A stretch of DNA of 64,000 nt from Mytilus galloprovincialis (lineage: Eukaryota; Mollusca; Bivalvia; Mytilida; Mytilidae): contig NC_134841.1 of NCBI RefSeq assembly GCF_965363235.1, positions 58,797,078 to 58,861,077 on the forward strand, written 5' to 3'. A program made the position numbers and the translations under genes. This document shows positions 12,495 through 48,364 of this stretch, in pieces. The notes beneath the pieces are model-generated. The model searched no databases. It worked only from the letters and a program-made list of their open reading frames with translations, and was not told where the DNA came from. Position 1 is the first letter of the stretch. Each line of letters starts with the position of its first letter.

Positions 12495-13871
12495 TTGGGA
12501 GTAACAACACCCATTGTGATTAGTAATTTAGTTCATGAATTAGAAAATCATCCAAATAAGGAATTCAAGAATTACCTAGTTTTTGGGTTAAGTCAAGGTT
12601 TTTCCACCGGTATTACAACATTACCATCTAAGTCTATTGAGTGCAAAAACTTAAGATCAGCGTTATCTCAACCAACACACGTTTTAAAATTAATAGAGAC
12701 GGAGGTAGAAAAGGGCTATTTAGAAGGACCATTTGATTTCATTCCATTTACACATTACCGCATTAACCCTATCGGTGTGGCAGAAGGTAAATACAATAAA
12801 AAGAAGCGTTTGATCGTAGACTTGTCAGCGCCTCATGAGGATCCAAAAAATCCTAGTTTAAACGAACTTATCGAGAAAGATGAATTTTCTTTGCAATATG
12901 TTTCAATTGATGATGCTATCAGAACTATAAAAAGCCTAGGTTTTAAATCTTGGCTTTTAAAAACCGATATAGCCGACGCCTTCAAGGTTATGCCCCTGTC
13001 GCCAATGTTATGGCCGTTTCATGGAATCAAATGGGATGACAGATATTACTTTTTTAATAAATTGGTGTTTGGGTGCAGGTCTAGCCCAAAAATCTTTGAC
13101 ACTCTTTCACAAGCAATTTGTTGGATTGCTCAGAACAATTACAATATAGAGCACATTTTACACTTGTTAGATGATTTTCTAGTTATTGTACCAGAACAAG
13201 ACAATGCTCAACAAACTATGAATACTTTTTTAGATATTTTTAAGTCATTAGGTGTGCCACTTTCAATTAAGAAAACTGAAGGACCATGTCATAAGTTAGA
13301 ATATTTAGGGATATTTTTAGATACTATTAATATGGAGGCTTATCTCCCTTTAGAAAAGGTTTTACGAATTCAAGAAATTATAGAATATTTCAGTAAGCGC
13401 AATTCGTGCACAAAAAGAGAGTTATTAAGTTTACTAGGGCATTTAAATTTTGCGTGCAGAGTTATAGTGCCAGGTAGATCATTTGTTTCACACTTAATTA
13501 AACTGTCTACTACTGTTAAAAAGTTGCATCACCATGTGCACTTAAAAAGTTGTAAACCTGATCTTGTTATGTGGTCAAAATTTTTAAAAGATTGGAATGG
13601 TGTTTCCTTCTTTTTAAATGATAATATAACGAATGCTGCGGACATTCACTTGTTTACTGATGCTACACCTTCCTCATTTGGAGGTTTTTATCAAAATGAA
13701 TGGTTTCAAGGTGACTTTCCTTATGAACTATTGTCTTGTGAGCAAACATCTATGGCGTTTTTTGAATTGTATCCCATTGTAATGGCATGCGTACTGTGGA
13801 GAGATAGATGGAAAAGGAAACGTATATTATTCAATTGTGACAATTTAGCTACTGTTGATATTATAAACTAG
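12495..13871 (+). CDS. DIRS element: reverse transcriptase / RNase H region
   Basis: RT landmarks: LIVDLSAPH, LLKTDIADAFKVMPLSP, GIKWDDRYYFFNKLVFGCRS and the catalytic LLDDFLVI. An RNase H-like stretch follows (HLFTDATPSSFGG and a later FNCDN). The GIKW...YYF and GCRSSPKIF wording is typical of the DIRS clade and differs from Gypsy or Copia. The inserted tandem-unit element abuts the 3' end. Confidence 0.85.
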   Translation: MGVTTPIVISNLVHELENHPNKEFKNYLVFGLSQGFSTGITTLPSKSIECKNLRSALSQPTHVLKLIETEVEKGYLEGPFDFIPFTHYRINPIGVAEGKYNKKKRLIVDLSAPHEDPKNPSLNELIEKDEFSLQYVSIDDAIRTIKSLGFKSWLLKTDIADAFKVMPLSPMLWPFHGIKWDDRYYFFNKLVFGCRSSPKIFDTLSQAICWIAQNNYNIEHILHLLDDFLVIVPEQDNAQQTMNTFLDIFKSLGVPLSIKKTEGPCHKLEYLGIFLDTINMEAYLPLEKVLRIQEIIEYFSKRNSCTKRELLSLLGHLNFACRVIVPGRSFVSHLIKLSTTVKKLHHHVHLKSCKPDLVMWSKFLKDWNGVSFFLNDNITNAADIHLFTDATPSSFGGFYQNEWFQGDFPYELLSCEQTSMAFFELYPIVMACVLWRDRWKRKRILFNCDNLATVDIIN

Positions 13872-35812: not shown

Positions 35813-36476
35813 TTATTATAGTATTTGCAACTAGACTGATATAATAAGTAAGGTTACCTTGAGTTATCCAAGTAAGTGTATGGCAAATGGCAGATACGAG
35901 TTGAGGATTAGACGTCTGTCTTCATCAAGCTCTCTGGTTATTCTGCAATGTTGGTAAGTACTCACCACAGGAAGTTGACAGTCGCACTATAGGTCAATGT
36001 CCGGGTTCGGTGATAATCAGATCCGGACAAGTCGATTACAACATTCTTCCCCCTTCTCTCTGAAAAGATTGTTGGTATAATGTAAATTTATAAAAAGACT
36101 GATTAGTGATAGTTCTCTATTCTGAAGTCCTCTTTGTCCCACTATGATTTCCTTAAACTGTGAATGAAGTTACTGTCATTTAATCATGTCAGAAACTGTC
36201 CCGCAGATATCATGATATCTCCATTGATTTACTTATAACTTGAGGTGTTACTGTCATTTAACCATGTCAGTAATAACCCCCCTTTATCCTAATATTTCCA
36301 GTGGTCCTTTGAAACGAAAGTCATTCAACAGAATGGCACAATATTTACAGTTACACATCAAACACACATAGTTCACATAACAGTTTTACAACACAGTACA
36401 ATTGTTACAGTTCCACATGATACACACACGCATATAGTTATTTACAGTTAAAAATATATATACACACAAAGATACG

Positions 36477-37361
36477 CTATTCAAACTTATATAGCTGCTG
36501 AGCATTACGGGTGGTGATGTCAGCAATTTCCCTTCCTGGAATATTAAACATGATAGACAATTTCTGTATAGTAGATCTAATCAATATTGGAGAACTGTCC
36601 TCATAGTTCTTGGGTTGGAGGTATGGTGCATCACTTTCCAAAATGATGTCCTCTAGGCTCATCTCGCAAACCTGTGAGCGGAGTTGTGGATAGGTATCTT
36701 CCATTAATAGTAATGGAGAAATACCAAATTTGGTATTAGGAAAACAACGCTTTATATTTTCGTATGTTCTCTTATCCTGCGAGAAACAGTGCCAGTGGAC
36801 ACCATGATCCCTGTCCAGTATCTCTGACATAATATCTAAGCACCTGGCAGTTATGCTTTTACCTCTGCAATGAATTACGACGGGTAACTTGCAATCTCTG
36901 GCCAACTCTAATTGTACTCGTAGTACCTTAACTTGCTCTCTCATATCTTTCTCCCCCTGACTTACGTCCAATCCACATTCCCCTATTGCTAAAAAATTAC
37001 CTGGGATTCTTCTTTTCAACTCATTAAAGTGCCGACCCACCTGGTTCCCTGCTACCTTTGGATGGATTCCAATAGTGTGGAGAATTCTCTTATCCTCCTT
37101 TAACAAGTCCCCATCTAAGCAAGCTGTCCACCGACTTGGAAAAACAAAATTTGATATTAGTTTTCTAATCTGAAATTTCTCATTATCTTGTTCTTCCCAA
37201 ATGTATGATGGCAAGCCAGAAAATCTGGCTTGTAGGAAGAATTTGTCCCAATGAAAATGTGTGTCAATAATTGTGTGTATCGGATGTGAGGTAATTTTAC
37301 ATAGAGACAATTTACAATTATATGAAAGTAAATTTTCAGAATCCTCGGATGATTTAATCAA
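36477..37361 (-). CDS. TatD-type metal-dependent nuclease ORF carried by the Gypsy element
   Basis: A 294-residue product with the TatD family motifs in order: IIDTHFHWD (metal-binding HxH), TIGIHPKV, FLAIGECGLD (metal-bridging Glu), LPVVIHCRGK (His), HWHCFSQD (His) and IILESDAPYLQP (catalytic Asp). Length matches the family (about 260-300). All recognised metal ligands are present. TatD proteins are 3'-5' exonucleases or DNases of the amidohydrolase superfamily. It lies between pol and the 3' LTR, after the Cys/His ORF and in the same orientation. An effect on cDNA or on host DNA repair is inference only. The TatD assignment is firm; activity is not shown. Confidence 0.9.
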   Translation of the reverse strand: MIKSSEDSENLLSYNCKLSLCKITSHPIHTIIDTHFHWDKFFLQARFSGLPSYIWEEQDNEKFQIRKLISNFVFPSRWTACLDGDLLKEDKRILHTIGIHPKVAGNQVGRHFNELKRRIPGNFLAIGECGLDVSQGEKDMREQVKVLRVQLELARDCKLPVVIHCRGKSITARCLDIMSEILDRDHGVHWHCFSQDKRTYENIKRCFPNTKFGISPLLLMEDTYPQLRSQVCEMSLEDIILESDAPYLQPKNYEDSSPILIRSTIQKLSIMFNIPGREIADITTRNAQQLYKFE

Positions 37362-37430
37362 TAAAGCTAAGACCTTCCAGTGTAGGAGAGAATGTATGTA
37401 TGATGGTGGAAAGACCGTGTAAGCTGATGA

Positions 37431-37949
37431 TTAGTGAAAATGGTTTATCCTGTTGAAATTTAGCAGAAACGGCAGGTCTGTTTGATGAAAGGTTGCTTTG
37501 TCACACTGTTCTAGAGTGGACATCTCTCCGGCGAATGTTACCAATTTGTCCAATGTGGAAACCTCGAACTGACGACAAAGTTCTATGAGTAAGCCATTCA
37601 TCAATTCAACCCAGTCAACCAAAAATTCCTCTTTGTACCCATGTGTCTGTTCTGAATTGTGATAGTCGTTGCAATGTATGGTAAATGCACCTTGTTGGCC
37701 AAATTGAAGTTGACAGGTCCAACATGCCAACAGAGGTGCAGTATACCAGGGTACATGAGCCCGAAGCACATGTCTTCTTACATTCACAAACCTACCAGAG
37801 CGTATACAGCATGGTCTTGATCTTTTTTTATTATTACTGCTACCTTTAATTCTTTGTTCTTTCAGCAAACACCCTTCCTTTTCTGTCTGTTCTTTCAGCA
37901 CATCCACTTCCTCTTCTTCTGGCTCATAGTCTAGCTCTTCCTCTTCCAT
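37431..37949 (-). CDS. Cys/His-rich ORF carried by the Gypsy element
   Basis: A 172-residue product: an acidic N-terminus (MEEEELDYEPEEEEVDV), a basic patch (KKRSRPCC), then a zinc-finger-like stretch CCIR...VRRHVLRAH and CWTCQLQF...FTIHCNDYH with C2H2-like spacing. It ends about 70 bp before the TatD ORF on the same strand. No signal peptide or membrane segment is present, so it is not an envelope. It probably binds nucleic acid or a partner protein. The family is not recognised. Confidence 0.65.
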   Translation of the reverse strand: MEEEELDYEPEEEEVDVLKEQTEKEGCLLKEQRIKGSSNNKKRSRPCCIRSGRFVNVRRHVLRAHVPWYTAPLLACWTCQLQFGQQGAFTIHCNDYHNSEQTHGYKEEFLVDWVELMNGLLIELCRQFEVSTLDKLVTFAGEMSTLEQCDKATFHQTDLPFLLNFNRINHFH

Positions 37950-38027
37950 TCTTTAAAAGTAAGATAAAGAAAAAACAAATTAAACATATAACATATATAC
38001 ACTATTTATACACAAACTACATCACCA

Positions 38028-41000
38028 TTAGTCCATTACAAAATCTCTAAAGTGGGCAGGGGCCTTCCTGTCCCTCCCTCTGCTCCTATCAGACAGTTTA
38101 ACTCGTGCTTCCCCAGTATCGGCTACATTATAGATTATTGTCTGATCCCCAAAATTATCATCAAGGTTCATTAGGGTTTCCCAATCCTGTATAGTAAACT
38201 GATCAGATTCTTGTGAGCTCCTTTTATTAGTCAGAAAATCTGACTGCCCAATTCCAGTATTGCCTCCACCAGTCAGAGAGTCTGACTGTGCCAGGCTACT
38301 GTCCATCATATTCCACAACATTGGCTCATTATTACTGAAAAGCAAATCTAGCCCTAAGTCACAGTGTTCTTCCTTGTCAGTTAAATCTTCCAACATTTTC
38401 CTCTCCACCTGTTCTAGTATTCTTTTCTTAAGCATTTGTGTCCAGACAGGTAAATCACGAATTTGACTGAGTTTGAGCCTATCATGATGAACAACTTCAG
38501 ACGTTTTTTTGTTCCTAATTTTGTATAGGACCGGTGATTTAACCTCAGCTACCACAAAGGGCCCTTTCCATGGTGCCTTCAGTTTTGGACACACCCCAAC
38601 TTTCCTGGCTGAATCTATCTTAAAAACAATATCTCCTACCTTATATACCTTACAATTGACATTCAGGTCATAATCTCTCTTTTGTCTCCACTGAGCCATT
38701 TTAATGTTTTCCCTGGCAAGGACATGTACCTCTGTCAGCGTCTCTCTAAGAATCTTGATATAATCTGTTAGCTCTTTTTGTTCTCTAGTCCTGTTAGGTG
38801 GATCAAGACCCAAAACTAGGTCAATAGGTTGACTATTTTCCTTGCCAAAAACCATGAAATTTGGTGTGAACCCAGTTTGTCTCTTTTCTGTAGCTCTTAT
38901 GGCACCAGTAAGTTGCTGTAGGTGTACATCCAGCTATCCTGTGGTCTCTTAGTGAAACACCTTATCATCTGCGCAAGAGTGCGATTATAACGTTCAACTT
39001 GACCGTTTGAAGCTGGATGATATGCTGTCGTCCTTGTTTTCGTTATCTCTAAGAGTTCACAGAGCTGTCGTATCACATTACCATCAACATTTTTCCCCTG
39101 ATCTGTATGAATCTCCAAGGGACACCCAAATCTTGATATTGTACTGTCCATAAAAGCTTTGGCAATTGTTTCTGCATGTTGGTTCGGCAAAGCACAACAC
39201 TCAATCCATTTGGTAAATTGATCAAGGATCACAAGTATATATTTATTACCCATTTTAGTTACAGGTAGAGGGCCTAAAATGTCCATATGTATCCTTTCAA
39301 AAGGGACCCCAGAGTGATATTGCCCCAGATCTGCTCTTGCCTTCCTGCATGCTTTCTTCTGCCTATTGCAAACATGACATGAACTTACATAGATTTTACA
39401 ATCTGTTGACATCTTGTACCAGTATGCCGTCTTCCTTAGTTTTGAAAGTGTCTTGTCCTGCCCTAAATGTCCAGAAGATCTTAGATCATGACAGCACCTG
39501 AGCAATTCATCTTTCAGACTGTCTGGGGTCATAAAAAAAGTCCTAGAACCAATAGGGTCCTCCCAGATATAAGACAGTATACCGTCTTGATATCTAAGTT
39601 GTGACTTACATTGCCAAAGATGTCTAACTCCTGGACTCTGCATCTGTAATTCCTGCTTAGAGGGAGTATGATTCAGTGTAAACCATGCAATAATAGTACT
39701 TAGGTGTTTATCCTGACTTTGCAATTGTCTCAAGTCATCATTTGAATAACTGGTAGGCATTCCCATTATACCTATATTATTGTCTGATGTTACATTCCTT
39801 ATTGACCTTATGGTTAATCCTATGATGCCAACTGGTGAAGTACAGCTGACAGATCTCGCTGTCAAAGGTACCACAAAGTCTACATCTTCTTCAAATGTTT
39901 GCCACTGGTTCCTTGCTCGAGTGCAGTACTTACAACCTCCACAAGGAAGCAAATTAAGGGGTATCTCCGAGCAGTAGTGCGAGCAAAGGTCTTGGTGATT
40001 AGGTATCCTGGAAAGCCCATCTGCATTTGAATGTTTCTTACCTGGTCTATGTTGAATGATCAGGTTATACTGTGATAACTCTTCTAGCCAGCGAGCTAAC
40101 TGTCCCTCTATGTTTTTGAAGTTCATGAGCCACTTCAAACTGTTATGGTCTGTGCGTATAGTGAACTGGTTACCAAGAAGATAATGACGATATTGTCTGG
40201 TAAAGGCTATTATTGCTAGAAGTTCCTTCCGTGTAGTGCAATATTTTCTCTGAGCTGGTGTCAATACCCTACTTGCATAGCTTACTGTAACACACTTGCC
40301 GTTTTGAATTTGACTCAATTCTGCTCCGATAGTATTTTCAGAGGCATCAGTATCCAAAATGAATGGAAAGTTCGGATCAGGATATCCCAATACAGGTGGT
40401 GTAGTTAAAGCCTTCTTAATACTATTAAATGCATCTTGATGTTCTGATTCCCATTTAAACTCCTTTCCTCCTGTAAGGACATGTAAAGGTGCGGCCAGAG
40501 CAGCATAATGAGACACATGCTCCCTGTGGTAATTAGCAAATCCCAAAAATGATTCTAGTTCTTTCTTACTTTTTGGAACTGGCCATTTCTGTACAGTATC
40601 AATGTTCTTACGATCTATTGAGATCCCATCCTTGCTGACAATCTTGCCTAAAAATTTTACCTCTTGTTGGAACAGATTGCACTTTGATGGCTTCAACTTG
40701 AGATTATACTGCTGGAATCGCTCTAATACATGTCTCAGCTTCTGTAGGTGGTCCTCAAAACTATAACCCAAAATGACATCATCCAGATATGCTAAACACA
40801 CCTCCCAAGTTAAACCCTGCAATACTAACTGAACAACTCTACTAAAAGTAGCTGGCGAATTACAGAGACCAAATGGCAGTCTGATGTGCTCGAACAAACC
40901 ATACTTAGTCACAAAAGCGGTCTTATAGCGGTCTCTCTCGTCTATTTCCAACTGCCAATATCCCGCAGCCATATCCACCGTACTCATGTACTGGCTTCCA

Positions 41001-42466
41001 CGCAAAGTATCTAGACAGGTTTCTATTTTCGCTATCGGAAATAAATCTTTTGTTGTAGCTGAGTTGAGCCCCCTATAGTCTAGACAGTACCTGATAGAGC
41101 CATCCTTTTTCCGTACTAGAACCGGACATGCCGCCCAATCAGATATTGACGGCTGAATAACCCCTTTATCCAACATATCCTGTAAATGTTTTTGTTCCTC
41201 ACCTTCAAACTTTAATGGAGTCCGCCTCAGACGATGTTTTACTGGAGTAGCATCTCCTGTGTGGATACGGTGTTTAATTTCCCCTTTAAATAAACCCAGA
41301 TCCATATCCCCTTTCGCAAACACATCTTGAAATTGAATCAATAATTCTGCTATGTCCTTACATTCTGACAGTGCCATACCTTTAATGGTCCTTGAATACA
41401 GATCTTGTATATGTTTTGGAATAAGTTCATCTATATCTTCAATTGAATGAACTTGCTTGACAGAGACCCTGTCAGGCATGTTTTTATCAAAATCTTGTGA
41501 ACTTACCTCTGCATGAGAGTGGTTCTTGTCAGCTTTAATGGATAAAATTGTATGTGCTTGTGAACCTATATTTGAGTTCTCATTCGACTCTGACCCAGTT
41601 GTCAGGCTATCAGATATTCTGTCAGCCTGGGCAACTTGATGTGTTACAAAATCATTAAATGACTTGTCAGAAAACCTGTCAAGTTCATCTACATCTGTCA
41701 AGGGTATTGCACATTCTATTTCTGTGCCAATTCCAAATTTCAACCCTCCTTTCAAAGTGACAAACTTATTGGAGCCATTGCGTACTACTGTTGAAACCTC
41801 CTGACCTATTTTCAGCACGACATTCGGTGTAAGTAAACCTTTGAGTTCATAGTTTGGTTGTATAATAATATCAGACTTAGGTGTCCCATCAATCTCAATT
41901 TTCAATACCTTCATTGACTGTGGTGGAACAACTGTTTTCCTCCCTACCGTCACTCTGTAAACATGTGAGATTTTACCCTCCTTATCACCTAAACAAATGG
42001 CGGGTATGAGATCTTGATTTATCTGTACAGTATAATTGCCTAGATCAATTATAGCCTTGAAATGTTCCAAAAAATCAATACCTAATATTACCTTATCTGT
42101 AATCTCTGCAGCCACAAACCTCCATTTGACTTTGAGTTTACCAACTGTCACGTCAAGGTCATCTGTGTATCTGGCTTCCATTTCAGACCCTTTTCCGGCT
42201 CCTTTCAATATTATGTGCTGCTTCATCTTTACTCTTGGCCCCAACTGTTTAAGGAGTGATGTACTGATCACGGAAACCTGAGCTGCACTATCTACAACAG
42301 CTAAAACTTTTTGCCCATTAAGAGTTAAGTTTATGTACAATGTTTTTGAATCTGAATTATGTTTATACAAAAATAGTTCCTGAATTTTTGCTGTATTGTC
42401 AATATCTTTTATTTCTAAATTGTTTACATCTGTACATATTTGGCCACCATGCTCTGAGCTGATCAA
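38028..42466 (-). CDS. Gypsy element: pol region (protease, RT, RNase H, integrase)
   Basis: Read on the minus strand: aspartic protease (VLAVVDSAAQVSVIS), RT (DYRGLNSATTKD, MAAGYWQLEIDERD, catalytic YLDDVILG), RNase H (FILDTDASENTIGAELSQ, RTDHNSLKWLMNF), the integrase zinc-binding HHCC (HLGQDK ... CHVCNRQ), integrase core (DILGPLPVT, IHTDQGKNVDG, YHPASNGQVERYNRTL) and a C-terminal GPF/Y-like module (KAPWKGPFVVAEV, HHDRLKL). The family is Gypsy/Metaviridae. Treated as one fossil region with about one break. The start overlaps the gag end, as is common for programmed gag-pol expression in this family. Confidence 0.9.
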
Positions 42467-44013
42467 GAATTGGCCGTCTTTCTTGATCCCTGGTAGTTTA
42501 AAGTGTTGTGACTTGGTGATGGAGACCTACTTCGCATGGGCGACCCATTTCGATACATTATCTTACTCGGACAATCCCTGGCAAAATGTCCTTCTTTTCC
42601 ACACTGAAAACATCCTGTTCCCCTATAAGGGCTTGTTGGTCTTTCTGGTGTAGGAGACCTATATGTACTCCTTGACCTCTGGTTTTGACCCTGATTTTGG
42701 TTAAGTATATTGAGAATCTTTTTCACAATAATTTTTGTCTCTGCAAGATCATCTTCTGTTTTCTTAATTCTTTTCTCAATACTAGCACTTACCCCTCTTT
42801 TATCATCATCTTTCTCAACAACTCTTACAGCAAATGTTTCCTCTTCCTGCTCTTGGACATCTTCTGTATCGGAAAATGTAACTCTCTTCACTTCAGACTT
42901 CTTACCGCCCATAATAACTTTCTGGTTAGCTGCTGCACTACGTACAAATTGGACTGCTATATCCAAGGATTCTGGGTTCTTGTCCATGGCAACCAAAGCA
43001 GCTCTTTTATCTAGACAACCTCTCAAAAATGCATCAGTAGCGAGCGTCTCAGCAAACTTCTCTGGAGTGTCGGGGTAACCATCAACCGCCAACTCCTGTG
43101 CCCTCTCTGCAAAATCTCTCAAATTCTCTTCATTTTCTTGCCTCAAATCCTGTAATAATCTACGTAAAATATGGGGTAATTCCTTTTTACCAAATTTCTC
43201 ATTAAATTTCTGACAAAACAGTTTATAATTTGCCTGTAATGATTTAACCCTGTTACTGTAGTACTTCAGAGCCCTATCTCTTAAAAGTTCTATTAATTTG
43301 AACAATCTTTGTTCATCAGTCCATTTATATCTATCAGCTATGGTAGAAAACTGTAAAAAGTATGGTCGCCAGTCACTTTTGCCATCAAAAATAGCCAGCT
43401 TTGGAGCAGATGGACCATATTTGTCGGGAGTTGAAGGGGGTTTATAATTTACTCCTGATTTAGATTCCCTGTCAGTTATTACCTTTTGAATTCTAGCAAG
43501 AGACTCTTGCTGTTCTATTTGAGATTGCATTTTCTCTGTTTTTTCATGATACCGGTCTAATTCCTTATCTCTAATCTCTACCATTTCTCTAAAATGATTT
43601 AATTCTTGTTTTACCTTTTGTAAGTATTCATCCCGCTCTTGCTCATACTGCAACCTTTGTTGTTCCAATATGGCCAGGTTCTTCTCTCTCATCTGGTCAG
43701 CCTGTAACTGAAAACTAACTACCATGTCAGAACGATCCTTTTCAATACTAGATATTTTATCCCTTAGTAATGCTACCGTTGACGCAAGATCTTCCCCCGA
43801 TGGCTTAACTTCTTTAAAAGTTATTAGATTGTCTTTTAATAAAGATGCCCAAAGAGTACTAGAAATTTCTGTAATATCAAAGATGCTGTCTTCAGTAAGT
43901 GTACCTTTTTCTTCTCTTGCCCGTAGTATGGCATTTGCTTTAGCCTCCCCAATGCCTTTTAATGACTTAAGTTGTAAAAATGTAGCTGTGTTAATATTCA
44001 CTGGTTCTGTCAT
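42463..44013 (-). CDS. Gypsy element: gag ORF
   Basis: A 516-residue product. The N-terminal helix-hairpin-helix-like part (INTATFLQLKSLKGIGEAKA) is followed by a long coiled coil (about residues 70-180, Glu/Gln/Arg-rich), a capsid-like region (DWRPYFLQFSTIADRYKWTD ... LRRLLQDLRQENEENLRDFA) and one CCHC knuckle near the C-terminus (CFQCGKEGHFARDC). The HhH-like opening is unusual for gag. The ORF is uninterrupted. Confidence 0.9.
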   Translation of the reverse strand: MTEPVNINTATFLQLKSLKGIGEAKANAILRAREEKGTLTEDSIFDITEISSTLWASLLKDNLITFKEVKPSGEDLASTVALLRDKISSIEKDRSDMVVSFQLQADQMREKNLAILEQQRLQYEQERDEYLQKVKQELNHFREMVEIRDKELDRYHEKTEKMQSQIEQQESLARIQKVITDRESKSGVNYKPPSTPDKYGPSAPKLAIFDGKSDWRPYFLQFSTIADRYKWTDEQRLFKLIELLRDRALKYYSNRVKSLQANYKLFCQKFNEKFGKKELPHILRRLLQDLRQENEENLRDFAERAQELAVDGYPDTPEKFAETLATDAFLRGCLDKRAALVAMDKNPESLDIAVQFVRSAAANQKVIMGGKKSEVKRVTFSDTEDVQEQEEETFAVRVVEKDDDKRGVSASIEKRIKKTEDDLAETKIIVKKILNILNQNQGQNQRSRSTYRSPTPERPTSPYRGTGCFQCGKEGHFARDCPSKIMYRNGSPMRSRSPSPSHNTLNYQGSRKTANS

Positions 44014-44657
44014 GATTGAATAAATCTATTTCTTATAAAATGAAATAAATATAAGACACAATGTTTTGCTATCTAATTAATCAGTAACACTGACTAAATT
44101 GTTAACAGGTTAAGTTTCAGTAACACTGACACTTGCCTGTATCTCTTTGTCGTTGACAATGACAAAGAAAAATGTATCAATCAAACTTCAGTTTCTAAAA
44201 TGATTAAATAATTGTCCAATAAATAATCAGTGAAACTGACAAAGGATTATTGACAATTGTTTTAAACACTTAGAAAATTATCCGTATATTTCGTCAATTT
44301 CGAATCTTTTATTGTTTCAAAATTCAAAAAGAAAAATTTTGCCGCTACAAAATCATTTCCGGTATTCTCCAGGTGAGTTGAAACAAACTTCTGACACCAA
44401 TATAGTATTTGCAACTAGACTGATATAATAAGTAAGGTTACCTTGAGTTATCCAAGTAAGTGTGTGGCAAATGGCAGATACGAGTTGAGGATTAGACGTC
44501 TGTCTTCATCAAGCTCTCTGGTTATTCTGCAATGTTGGTAAGTACTCACCACAGGAAGTTGACAGTCGCACTATAGGTCAATGTCCGGGTTCGGTGATAA
44601 TCAGATTCGGACAAGTCGATTACAACATTATTTAGTCATACAGAAAATAAATGTACA

Positions 44658-44743: not shown

Positions 44744-46215
44744 CTGTAAAACATATTTATTGAATTATACCATTTTTGGCTTATTTTGACACTTATTTCA
44801 AAAACTCGGTGGCAAAGAGGCTTAGGTTGCTCTATTACATGATGCCATTATTCTCTATTTTTTTCATATTTTCAATAGTTAATGAAGTATATCAAAGATG
44901 ATTATCTAAAGGTGCGAGACGATAGGACCTAGTGTTGAGCCCTAATAAAACTGCAAGTAAAATGTTATGTTGCCAGCCAAATATTAATTAAGATCGACGA
45001 CTCCACAGTGTGGGAACGGAACTGTACGGTTTTCTACTAATTTTGTCATTCGGGAGACTGTCAAGCGGTGCTCCGACATTAGCAAAATAACAAGTTGCTT
45101 GATGGAAACTTTGATGAACTCATATGTTGCTATATAACGTTTCTGCTTCAAGTTTTGATGGCTAAAACATTCTTTATGTAAACATGAACAAATAAAATAA
45201 TAAGAAAGATGTGTGCATTCAAACGTTTCCTTAGAATGGTGGAGCTCCTTGTAAAATGATCAAAATTGTCACACAACAGCGATCAAAAATGTCAAATAAA
45301 CATCGAAAAATCAATGTTTGCTACCTGAATTTTCACATGTACCTTTTCTGATATATAGTCTTGCCTATCTGAAAGTTTCAAAGCCATTGTCCCAGTAGAA
45401 ATCTAAATATATTCATTTTCTCCATGTCGGATATTTTTATTGACTGTACAATCGCTTGTAAGTTTACTGTAATATCACTCGGAGCCTTCCTGTACAATCG
45501 CTTGGAGCTTTTCTTTTCATCGTTTGGCCAACTAGACCACTCCGAAAGGAGAGTTACCTACTTTACCTTGTTATGACTTCATGGCCAAGCTAGCAATCAA
45601 GCTACTCAAAGGTATTACTTTTTCCTACACACTCATTGCATTTTGCTGTAATAGTTTCTAGTGGCATATGACTAATTATAACTCTTAAGTAGATAATGCT
45701 TACTACCATCTCTTCTGCCACATTCATGATCAGTTTATGTTTTCCATGATACTTTTGTTATATAAATATTTATTAAAACTATTGCAATCCAATACAATAT
45801 ATGTCTGGCATGATTTTTCTCTCCTTTTTCTGTTACGATTTAACAGTTACTTATTTGGTATTGTTATCATTTTTTTAAAACCTAAATTACACACTTAAAA
45901 TGTTAATGATGTTTGAAGCTTTTATTTGAATGAATGCAGCCTGCATTAACGGATCCGGTATGCGGGGAGAGGGAGTTTTGGTGGTTGAAACCCCATTTTT
46001 CCGATTATTTTTTTATTTTGTGGACATTTCAGTGTGTTCCGTTGTTTTGATCCCCCTTTTGCAGAAAGGCGGGATCCGCACCTGGTCTGATATCGTCAAT
46101 AATAGTATACTGATCCGATCATTCATCTGATTTTTTTTTATAGTTTGGTTTTGTGCTGTGCTAGTTTTGGGGAGAAATGAGCGCACACAGACATTTTTAA
46201 CCCTGCCAAATTATT

Positions 46216-47665: not shown

Positions 47666-48364
47666 GTTTTTGTCTTTGATATAGTCACCTTAAAAGGGTT
47701 CCTTGATAGAATCTTAATTGTCAAAATGACCGGTTTTATGCTTATTTTCACTTCAAATACCATAGATGAATTTAATAGGACAGCAAGAAATAACCAATGC
47801 AATGCATATACAATGTATTTTATAAATTTGGCCAAGCAATTCTACAGGAAAGCTCCAAGCGATTGTACAGGAAGGCTCCGAGTGATATTACAGTAAACTT
47901 ACAAGCGATTGTACAGTCAATAAAAATATCCGACATGGAGAAAAGGAATATATTTAGATTTCTATTGGGACAATGGCTTTGAAACTTTCAGACAGGTAAG
48001 ACTATATATCAGAAAAGGTACATGTGAAAAATTCAGGTAGCAAACATTGATTTTTCGATGTTTATTTGACATTTTTGATCGCTGTTGTGTGACAATTTTG
48101 ATCATTTGAGACGGAGCTGCACCATTCTAAGGAAAACGTTTGGATGCATATATCTTTCTTATTATTTTATTGGTTCATATTTACATAAAGAATGTTTTAG
48201 CTATTAAAACTTGAAGCAGAAACGTTATATAGGAACATAAGAGTTCGTCAAAGTTTCCATCAAGCAATTTGTTATTTTGCAAATGTCGGAGCACCGCTTG
48301 ACAGTCTCCCGAATTACCAAATTATTAGAAAACCGTACAGTTCCGTTCCCACACTGTGGACTCA

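Follow-up and report, generated by a model that had tools for sequence, protein, structure and literature searches.

LTR (long terminal repeat) retrotransposons are considered to depend on Gag and Pol, with an envelope protein (env) added for spread, and the env-type third open reading frame (ORF) of Gypsy elements sits between pol and the 3' LTR. Among known accessory domains of LTR elements, the excerpt of PMC6338049 that we used names the chromodomain and a DnaQ-like exonuclease. In bdelloid rotifers a DEDDy exonuclease with its catalytic residues present forms the third ORF of LTR retrotransposons; in the portion of that report available to us (PMC5408684) its role is given as unknown, it lies on recent branches after at least two acquisitions, and it shows no significant departure from neutrality. 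Here we describe a Gypsy-type LTR retrotransposon of the mussel Mytilus galloprovincialis whose third ORF (ORF3) joins a CCHH finger and a linker to a TatD nuclease domain. The element spans 35817-44627 on the minus strand of a 64-kb stretch (assembly GCF_965363235.1, contig NC_134841.1, positions 58,797,078 to 58,861,077), hereafter the window, in which all positions are counted. ORF3 resembles an env-type third ORF in its position and in a preceding acceptor-like site, but encodes a predicted TatD enzyme rather than a fusion glycoprotein. It is a TatD barrel by profile and by model, not a DnaQ/DEDD fold, and, set against the excerpted bdelloid account, it lies deep in its lineage and is under purifying selection. 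A nuclease as the third ORF of an LTR element is thus already known from bdelloids, and our results suggest that TatD in this place is new: we found no LTR element described as carrying TatD in titles and abstracts of the open-access literature (Repbase and GyDB lay outside this search), and "nuclease" and "additional ORF" are absent from the main text, as far as it was available, of a mollusc LTR survey with 21 Gypsy clades (PMC6238403).

ORF3 occupies 36477-37949 on the minus strand, between a Pfam-annotated pol on one side and the 3' LTR on the other, as a preliminary description of this DNA had placed it. The TatD motifs read there (DTHFHWD, GIHP, AIGECGLD, VIHCRGK, HCFSQD and ESDAP) are confirmed: the domain matches PF01026 over profile positions 1-253 of 253 (E=1.6e-41, 142.9 bits against a curated cut-off of 27), and the metal-site pattern HxH, Glu, His, His, Asp is present, residues which we take to be the metal ligands. 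By structure matches and model, it shares its fold and metal site with E. coli TatD/YcfH, which differ in being stand-alone bacterial enzymes without a finger-linker. The same description counted two extra ORFs and a complete-looking nuclease gene, and neither point held. The 172- and 294-amino-acid (aa) ORFs share one frame, split by a single stop codon at a position that is coding sequence in relatives such as P0001, a database protein named as M. trossulus and among the closest (490 aa, one chain, 96% identical over the TatD part). Finger-linker and TatD form a single open frame of about 490-670 aa in 23 of 31 group-1 copies (22 from frame reading plus L034, added at a recount; in six, L028 and L037-L041, the finger part fell short of an overlap rule and was read from the frames, L038 by frame length alone), which rules out two separate genes. 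The 31 comprise 17 of 20 TatD loci fetched, 13 further loci and the window copy; the latter is one of eight in which ORF3 is interrupted. In uninterrupted copies the order is CCHH finger, HW linker, TatD. Across 17 aligned ORF3 proteins the four finger-ligand positions are invariant and the catalytic and metal positions invariant or nearly so; the window copy has, besides its in-frame stop, a residue other than Cys or His at one finger-ligand position, and intact copies exist elsewhere.

The finger-linker part has no Pfam match in P0001 or in the window, and that of another copy, L069, gives a sub-threshold match to DUF4729 (E=6.8e-4, 19.6 of 26 bits). A fold search scarcely probed this part, since TatD matches filled the result list. 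In BFVD, one match lay below E=0.001, a Yasminevirus protein.

To place ORF3 in the genome, we searched the window's own assembly (1.38 Gb, 331 contigs). With PF01026, 150 of 173 candidates were scored, giving 144 matches. Gag and pol pieces and the Cys/His part lie upstream in the same orientation in 17 of the 20 fetched TatD loci, all eight searched element pieces being present in 14 of those 17, and an LTR-like direct repeat pair at element spacing was found in 8 of the 20. Starting from integrases (150 matches scored out of 2223 candidates, TatD sought on the same strand within 8 kb downstream), TatD follows 46 of the 48 that reach 50% identity to the window's, versus 12 of 102 below 50%; the distance in the 46 is 1.66-2.36 kb with one exception at 6.3 kb, and the two without TatD are partial integrase matches. 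The cargo's absence from other copies, which the preliminary description named as evidence that would speak against it, was therefore not what we found. With the window TatD as query, at least seven further genomic places appeared at 87-97% identity, so several copies of the window family bear TatD. Three of the 20 loci (L009, L010 and L012) carry TatD without element pieces, and the idea that all genomic TatD genes belong to elements is rejected, L009 matching human TATDN3 at E=6e-85. In the other two the TatD frames (L010:7935-8807 and L012:7827-8807) stand without Gypsy pieces in more than 2 kb of common sequence at 90-93% identity, which may represent a host gene that was duplicated or a further mobile unit. 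Separately, the Mytilus gene models P0128, P0131 and P0317 join TatD to integrase, CCHC or helix-hairpin-helix parts and look like pieces of retroelements that annotation has taken for host genes.

Phylogenetic analysis revealed a common history of ORF3 and integrase. In the integrase tree (34 rows) 14 group-1 rows fall on one side of a branch (98/94), and a 24-row clade (96/90) unites them with seven group-2 rows and three rows without TatD, while 10 other TatD-less rows fall outside it (midpoint root). The TatD tree (61 rows) holds group 1 (23 rows, 99/96) and group 2 (21 rows, 100/100, of which 17 are database proteins known without genomic place). One branch (96/85) separates 17 host, bacterial and TATDN2-like rows from all element TatDs, which form one group when the root is placed among those 17. 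Animal TATDN2 resembles ORF3 in that its TatD domain ends a longer protein and shares motifs, as far as the consulted parts of PMC12709183 and PMC10707325 describe it; the two TATDN2-like rows (so named by architecture, the tree having no named vertebrate TATDN2) fall outside the element TatDs and gave no match to the finger-linker profile. Across 12 families, integrase and TatD trees share six of nine splits; with labels shuffled 5000 times the mean was 0.28 common splits and six was never reached. The simplest reading is that TatD was acquired once, then passed on by common descent and lost from one subgroup. Among viral contigs four distant TatD loci were found, and a contig scan of genomes with P0234 as query found no relative.

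ORF3 is also maintained by selection. Pooled over copy pairs, which are not independent within a family, the ratio of nonsynonymous to synonymous differences (pN/pS) was 0.119 for TatD (24 pairs) and 0.135 for the Cys/His part (14), against 0.097 for reverse transcriptase (RT), 0.087 for RNase H and 0.087 for integrase (7 each) and 0.171 for gag (5). Since the copies came from a search favouring open frames, the fair comparison is with gag and pol from those loci. One pair from each of nine families gave a TatD dN/dS of 0.08-0.29, the constraint that the preliminary description had proposed to look for. The TatD gene is thus under purifying selection, with constraint like that of gag and pol, as had been claimed. 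Lineage-wide linkage, invariant residues and pN/pS together exclude a chance origin of ORF3, and we hold the anatomy and the lineage history with high confidence.

Several observations weigh against the explanation that we favour below. One subgroup within the clade has none (integrase rows L049-L051, no TatD match), and TatD is not required by every relative; the group-2 integrase L048 has no TatD match downstream, nor have three near-equal-scoring integrases (C1:33546145, C12:69480960 and C14:52322638). Of the 144 TatD matches, 63 pair with a scored integrase and 81 do not, the latter including fragments, apparent host exons and perhaps elements with an unscored integrase. Three of the nine splits differ between the two trees; none of them has a bootstrap above 94, and the trees make it unlikely that different elements captured TatD repeatedly. 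In four very young pairs all 12 differences are nonsynonymous, as expected where selection has had no time. Finally, the splice-acceptor-like site before ORF3, present in 9 of 13 families versus 1.4% of 1976 control ATGs, was scored by a rule defined after the sequences had been viewed, and the window copy has AAG there.

The subgroup without TatD retains the rest of the gene. Downstream of two of its rows, L063 and L062 have an integrase end with a PHD finger (a PF00628 match in L062, by eye in L063), then an ORF with finger and HW linker in which no TatD was detected (best tblastn E=0.13). L069 and L070 resemble them, and in L068 a single frame runs from gag through protease into the finger-linker module (RVP at 1.1e-5 passes its cut-off, Retrotrans_gag at 1.4e-4 does not). 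The single TatD-query match to L069 (E=6e-4) stems from a row that also contained the finger part, and the similarity of the L063 protein to group-2 ORFs with TatD is confined to the finger-linker. In these five a short alternative C-terminus replaces TatD. The L062 structure model is unusable (predicted local distance difference test, pLDDT, 33.9); its last ~70 residues run strand-strand-helix-strand-strand, a low-confidence order that is reminiscent of ubiquitin and serves as a lead only. In L043, by comparison, the ORF3 domain shares one frame with integrase. A PHD finger directly follows integrase in L043 (E=4.8e-9) and L062 (E=1.1e-11) and could possibly be a chromatin reader for integration. 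We can entertain, tentatively, an old and perhaps bivalve-wide LTR lineage that replicates with its own TatD and whose third gene would be a modular finger and HW linker platform with an exchangeable effector, TatD in many families and a small, perhaps ubiquitin-like domain in the sister subgroup, the platform sometimes sharing a frame with Pol beside a PHD finger. The TatD-less sister subgroup offers the natural comparison.

What ORF3 does we infer from these sequences, including its nuclease activity, its substrate, the step of the cycle and splicing. A Ty3/Gypsy lineage would have gained the finger-linker-TatD gene, probably once and long ago, and largely co-inherited it with pol since. Its protein would probably be made from a spliced, env-like subgenomic RNA; at least one family would make it by prolonging its Pol frame. 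Reverse transcription and integration yield RNA:DNA hybrids, residual primers, flaps and frayed 3' ends; the finger may keep the protein on the element's nucleic acid, where the metal-dependent TatD barrel may act on 3' ends or hybrids (residual RNA, flaps, frayed ends) during one of these two steps, and copies lacking ORF3 would spread less. Selection like that on pol, together with the L043 frame common with integrase, makes a role in the element's own replication the best guess. In the parts of the literature consulted, E. coli TatD digests single-stranded DNA and RNA as a 3'-5' exonuclease, and TATDN2 degrades the RNA in R-loops (PMC12709183, PMC10707325). We favour this explanation as a whole, from single acquisition through co-inheritance to replication nuclease, at somewhat short of even confidence, and are slightly less sure again of the mechanism taken by itself.

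Counter-defence or competition is an unlikely alternative, in which the finger-TatD protein would work in trans against silencing RNAs or R-loops of the host or the cDNA of rival elements, rather than in replication of its own element. A TatD-family nuclease does serve a genetic conflict system, the bacterial Qat anti-phage system, and an ORF3 that stands separately behind an acceptor-like site of its own could be expressed independently of Pol; the match to the QatD model (E=1.3e-13) is far under the NCBIfam cut-off, at 50.7 bits versus 230, and the L043 domain within the integrase frame fits action inside the particle better. Less likely still, ORF3 might be an abasic-site endonuclease or end-cleaner acting on damaged cDNA, a counterpart of the dUTPase found in some retroelements: abasic sites are cut by TATDN1, TATDN3 and E. 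coli TatD according to the sections seen of PMC12709183, yet the TATDN3 row stands apart from the element TatDs in a tree that contained no human TATDN1 row. It is improbable that ORF3 serves mainly in targeting, its finger and linker binding nucleic acid or chromatin and TatD chiefly binding with catalysis secondary; the TatD-less subgroup keeps finger and linker and PHD fingers follow integrase in L043 and L062, but binding alone would not demand the near-invariant catalytic and metal positions. That TatD was captured as neutral cargo, or is an artefact of annotation, scarcely deserves belief, for all that the gene is interrupted in 8 of 31 copies, the window's among them, and passenger status is rejected on the pooled pN/pS, on the values from the nine families and on the deep history in common with integrase.

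The window element itself is of Ty3/Gypsy type by its LTR pair with target duplication and by its Pfam domain order of protease, RT, RNase H and integrase (Table 1). The LTR pair was first detected in a repeat search as a 232-nt direct repeat (99%). The earlier claim of a young element fits the LTRs, whose two mismatches over 227 nt (not 226), with the 4-nt direct repeat ATAA at both outer edges, look like a recent insertion; the element is not complete, since ORF3 and pol are both interrupted, pol switching frame within the integrase region, and the copy is probably non-autonomous at present. As an unusual part, the window Gag starts with a ComEA-like helix-hairpin-helix. Elsewhere in the window lie a second retroelement, with an ORF at 12495-13871 on the plus strand bearing a reverse transcriptase domain (RVT_1 3.6e-13), and an inverted repeat (45360-45514 and 47846-48000; 155 nt, 97% complementary, 2.3 kb apart), the second arm of which reaches the edge of the searched stretch.

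Table 1. Parts of the Gypsy element in the window, listed from its 5' to its 3' end.
Feature	Position	Strand	Remarks
5' LTR	44401..44627	-	227 nt; ATAA repeat directly outside, 44628-44631
Putative primer-binding site	44388..44399	-	TGGTGTCAGAAG, read from sequence; presumably fits tRNA-Leu
gag: helix-hairpin-helix, Retrotrans_gag, CCHC knuckle	42463..44013	-	HHH_3 6.8e-9, zf-CCHC 8.8e-7, Retrotrans_gag 2.1e-6
pol: protease, RT, RNase H, integrase	38897..42466	-	Pfam; frame terminates within integrase region
Remaining integrase (p58 C-terminal domain), different frame	38028..38855	-	PF22938 1e-8
Pyrimidine-rich tract with terminal AG, immediately before ORF3 ATG	37951..37980	-	AAG here, not C/TAG
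ORF3 N-terminal half: CCHH finger, second C2H2-like motif, part of linker	37431..37949	-	no Pfam match; stops at in-frame stop; one finger ligand altered
ORF3 C-terminal half: predicted TatD nuclease domain, same frame	36477..37361	-	PF01026 1.6e-41; TatD structures, best 3.6e-17
Purine run before 3' LTR, putative polypurine tract	36044..36061	-	read from sequence
3' LTR	35817..36043	-	227 nt; ATAA repeat directly outside, 35813-35816

Proteins of this type extend beyond Mytilus. Profile search recovered them from Saccostrea, Pecten, Pinctada, Argopecten, Ruditapes, Mya, Crassostrea/Magallana and Dreissena, known as proteins only; of 98 new proteins (P0225-P0322), 88 carry PF01026 and 82 match the finger-linker profile at E<=1e-3. 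Matches named as bacterial (Sedimenticola and Thiodiazotropha metagenome-assembled genomes) are probably host DNA in symbiont assemblies. In the giant squid, a Hox cluster figure legend, the part of PMC6962438 that we draw on, names a TATDN2 model as one of the non-Hox genes in between, beside a pogo transposable element gene, and this model could be of related origin. Many Mytilus gene models named tatD, TATDN2-like or HI_0454-like are probable retroelement genes rather than an expansion of a host gene family; extending this reading to TatD gene models of other bivalves is a guess. For the element family, our findings suggest that a mussel Gypsy lineage uses a nuclease of its own, and a nuclease kept under pol-like selection points to a step beyond RT, RNase H and integrase, be it in reverse transcription, end processing, integration or conflict with the host.
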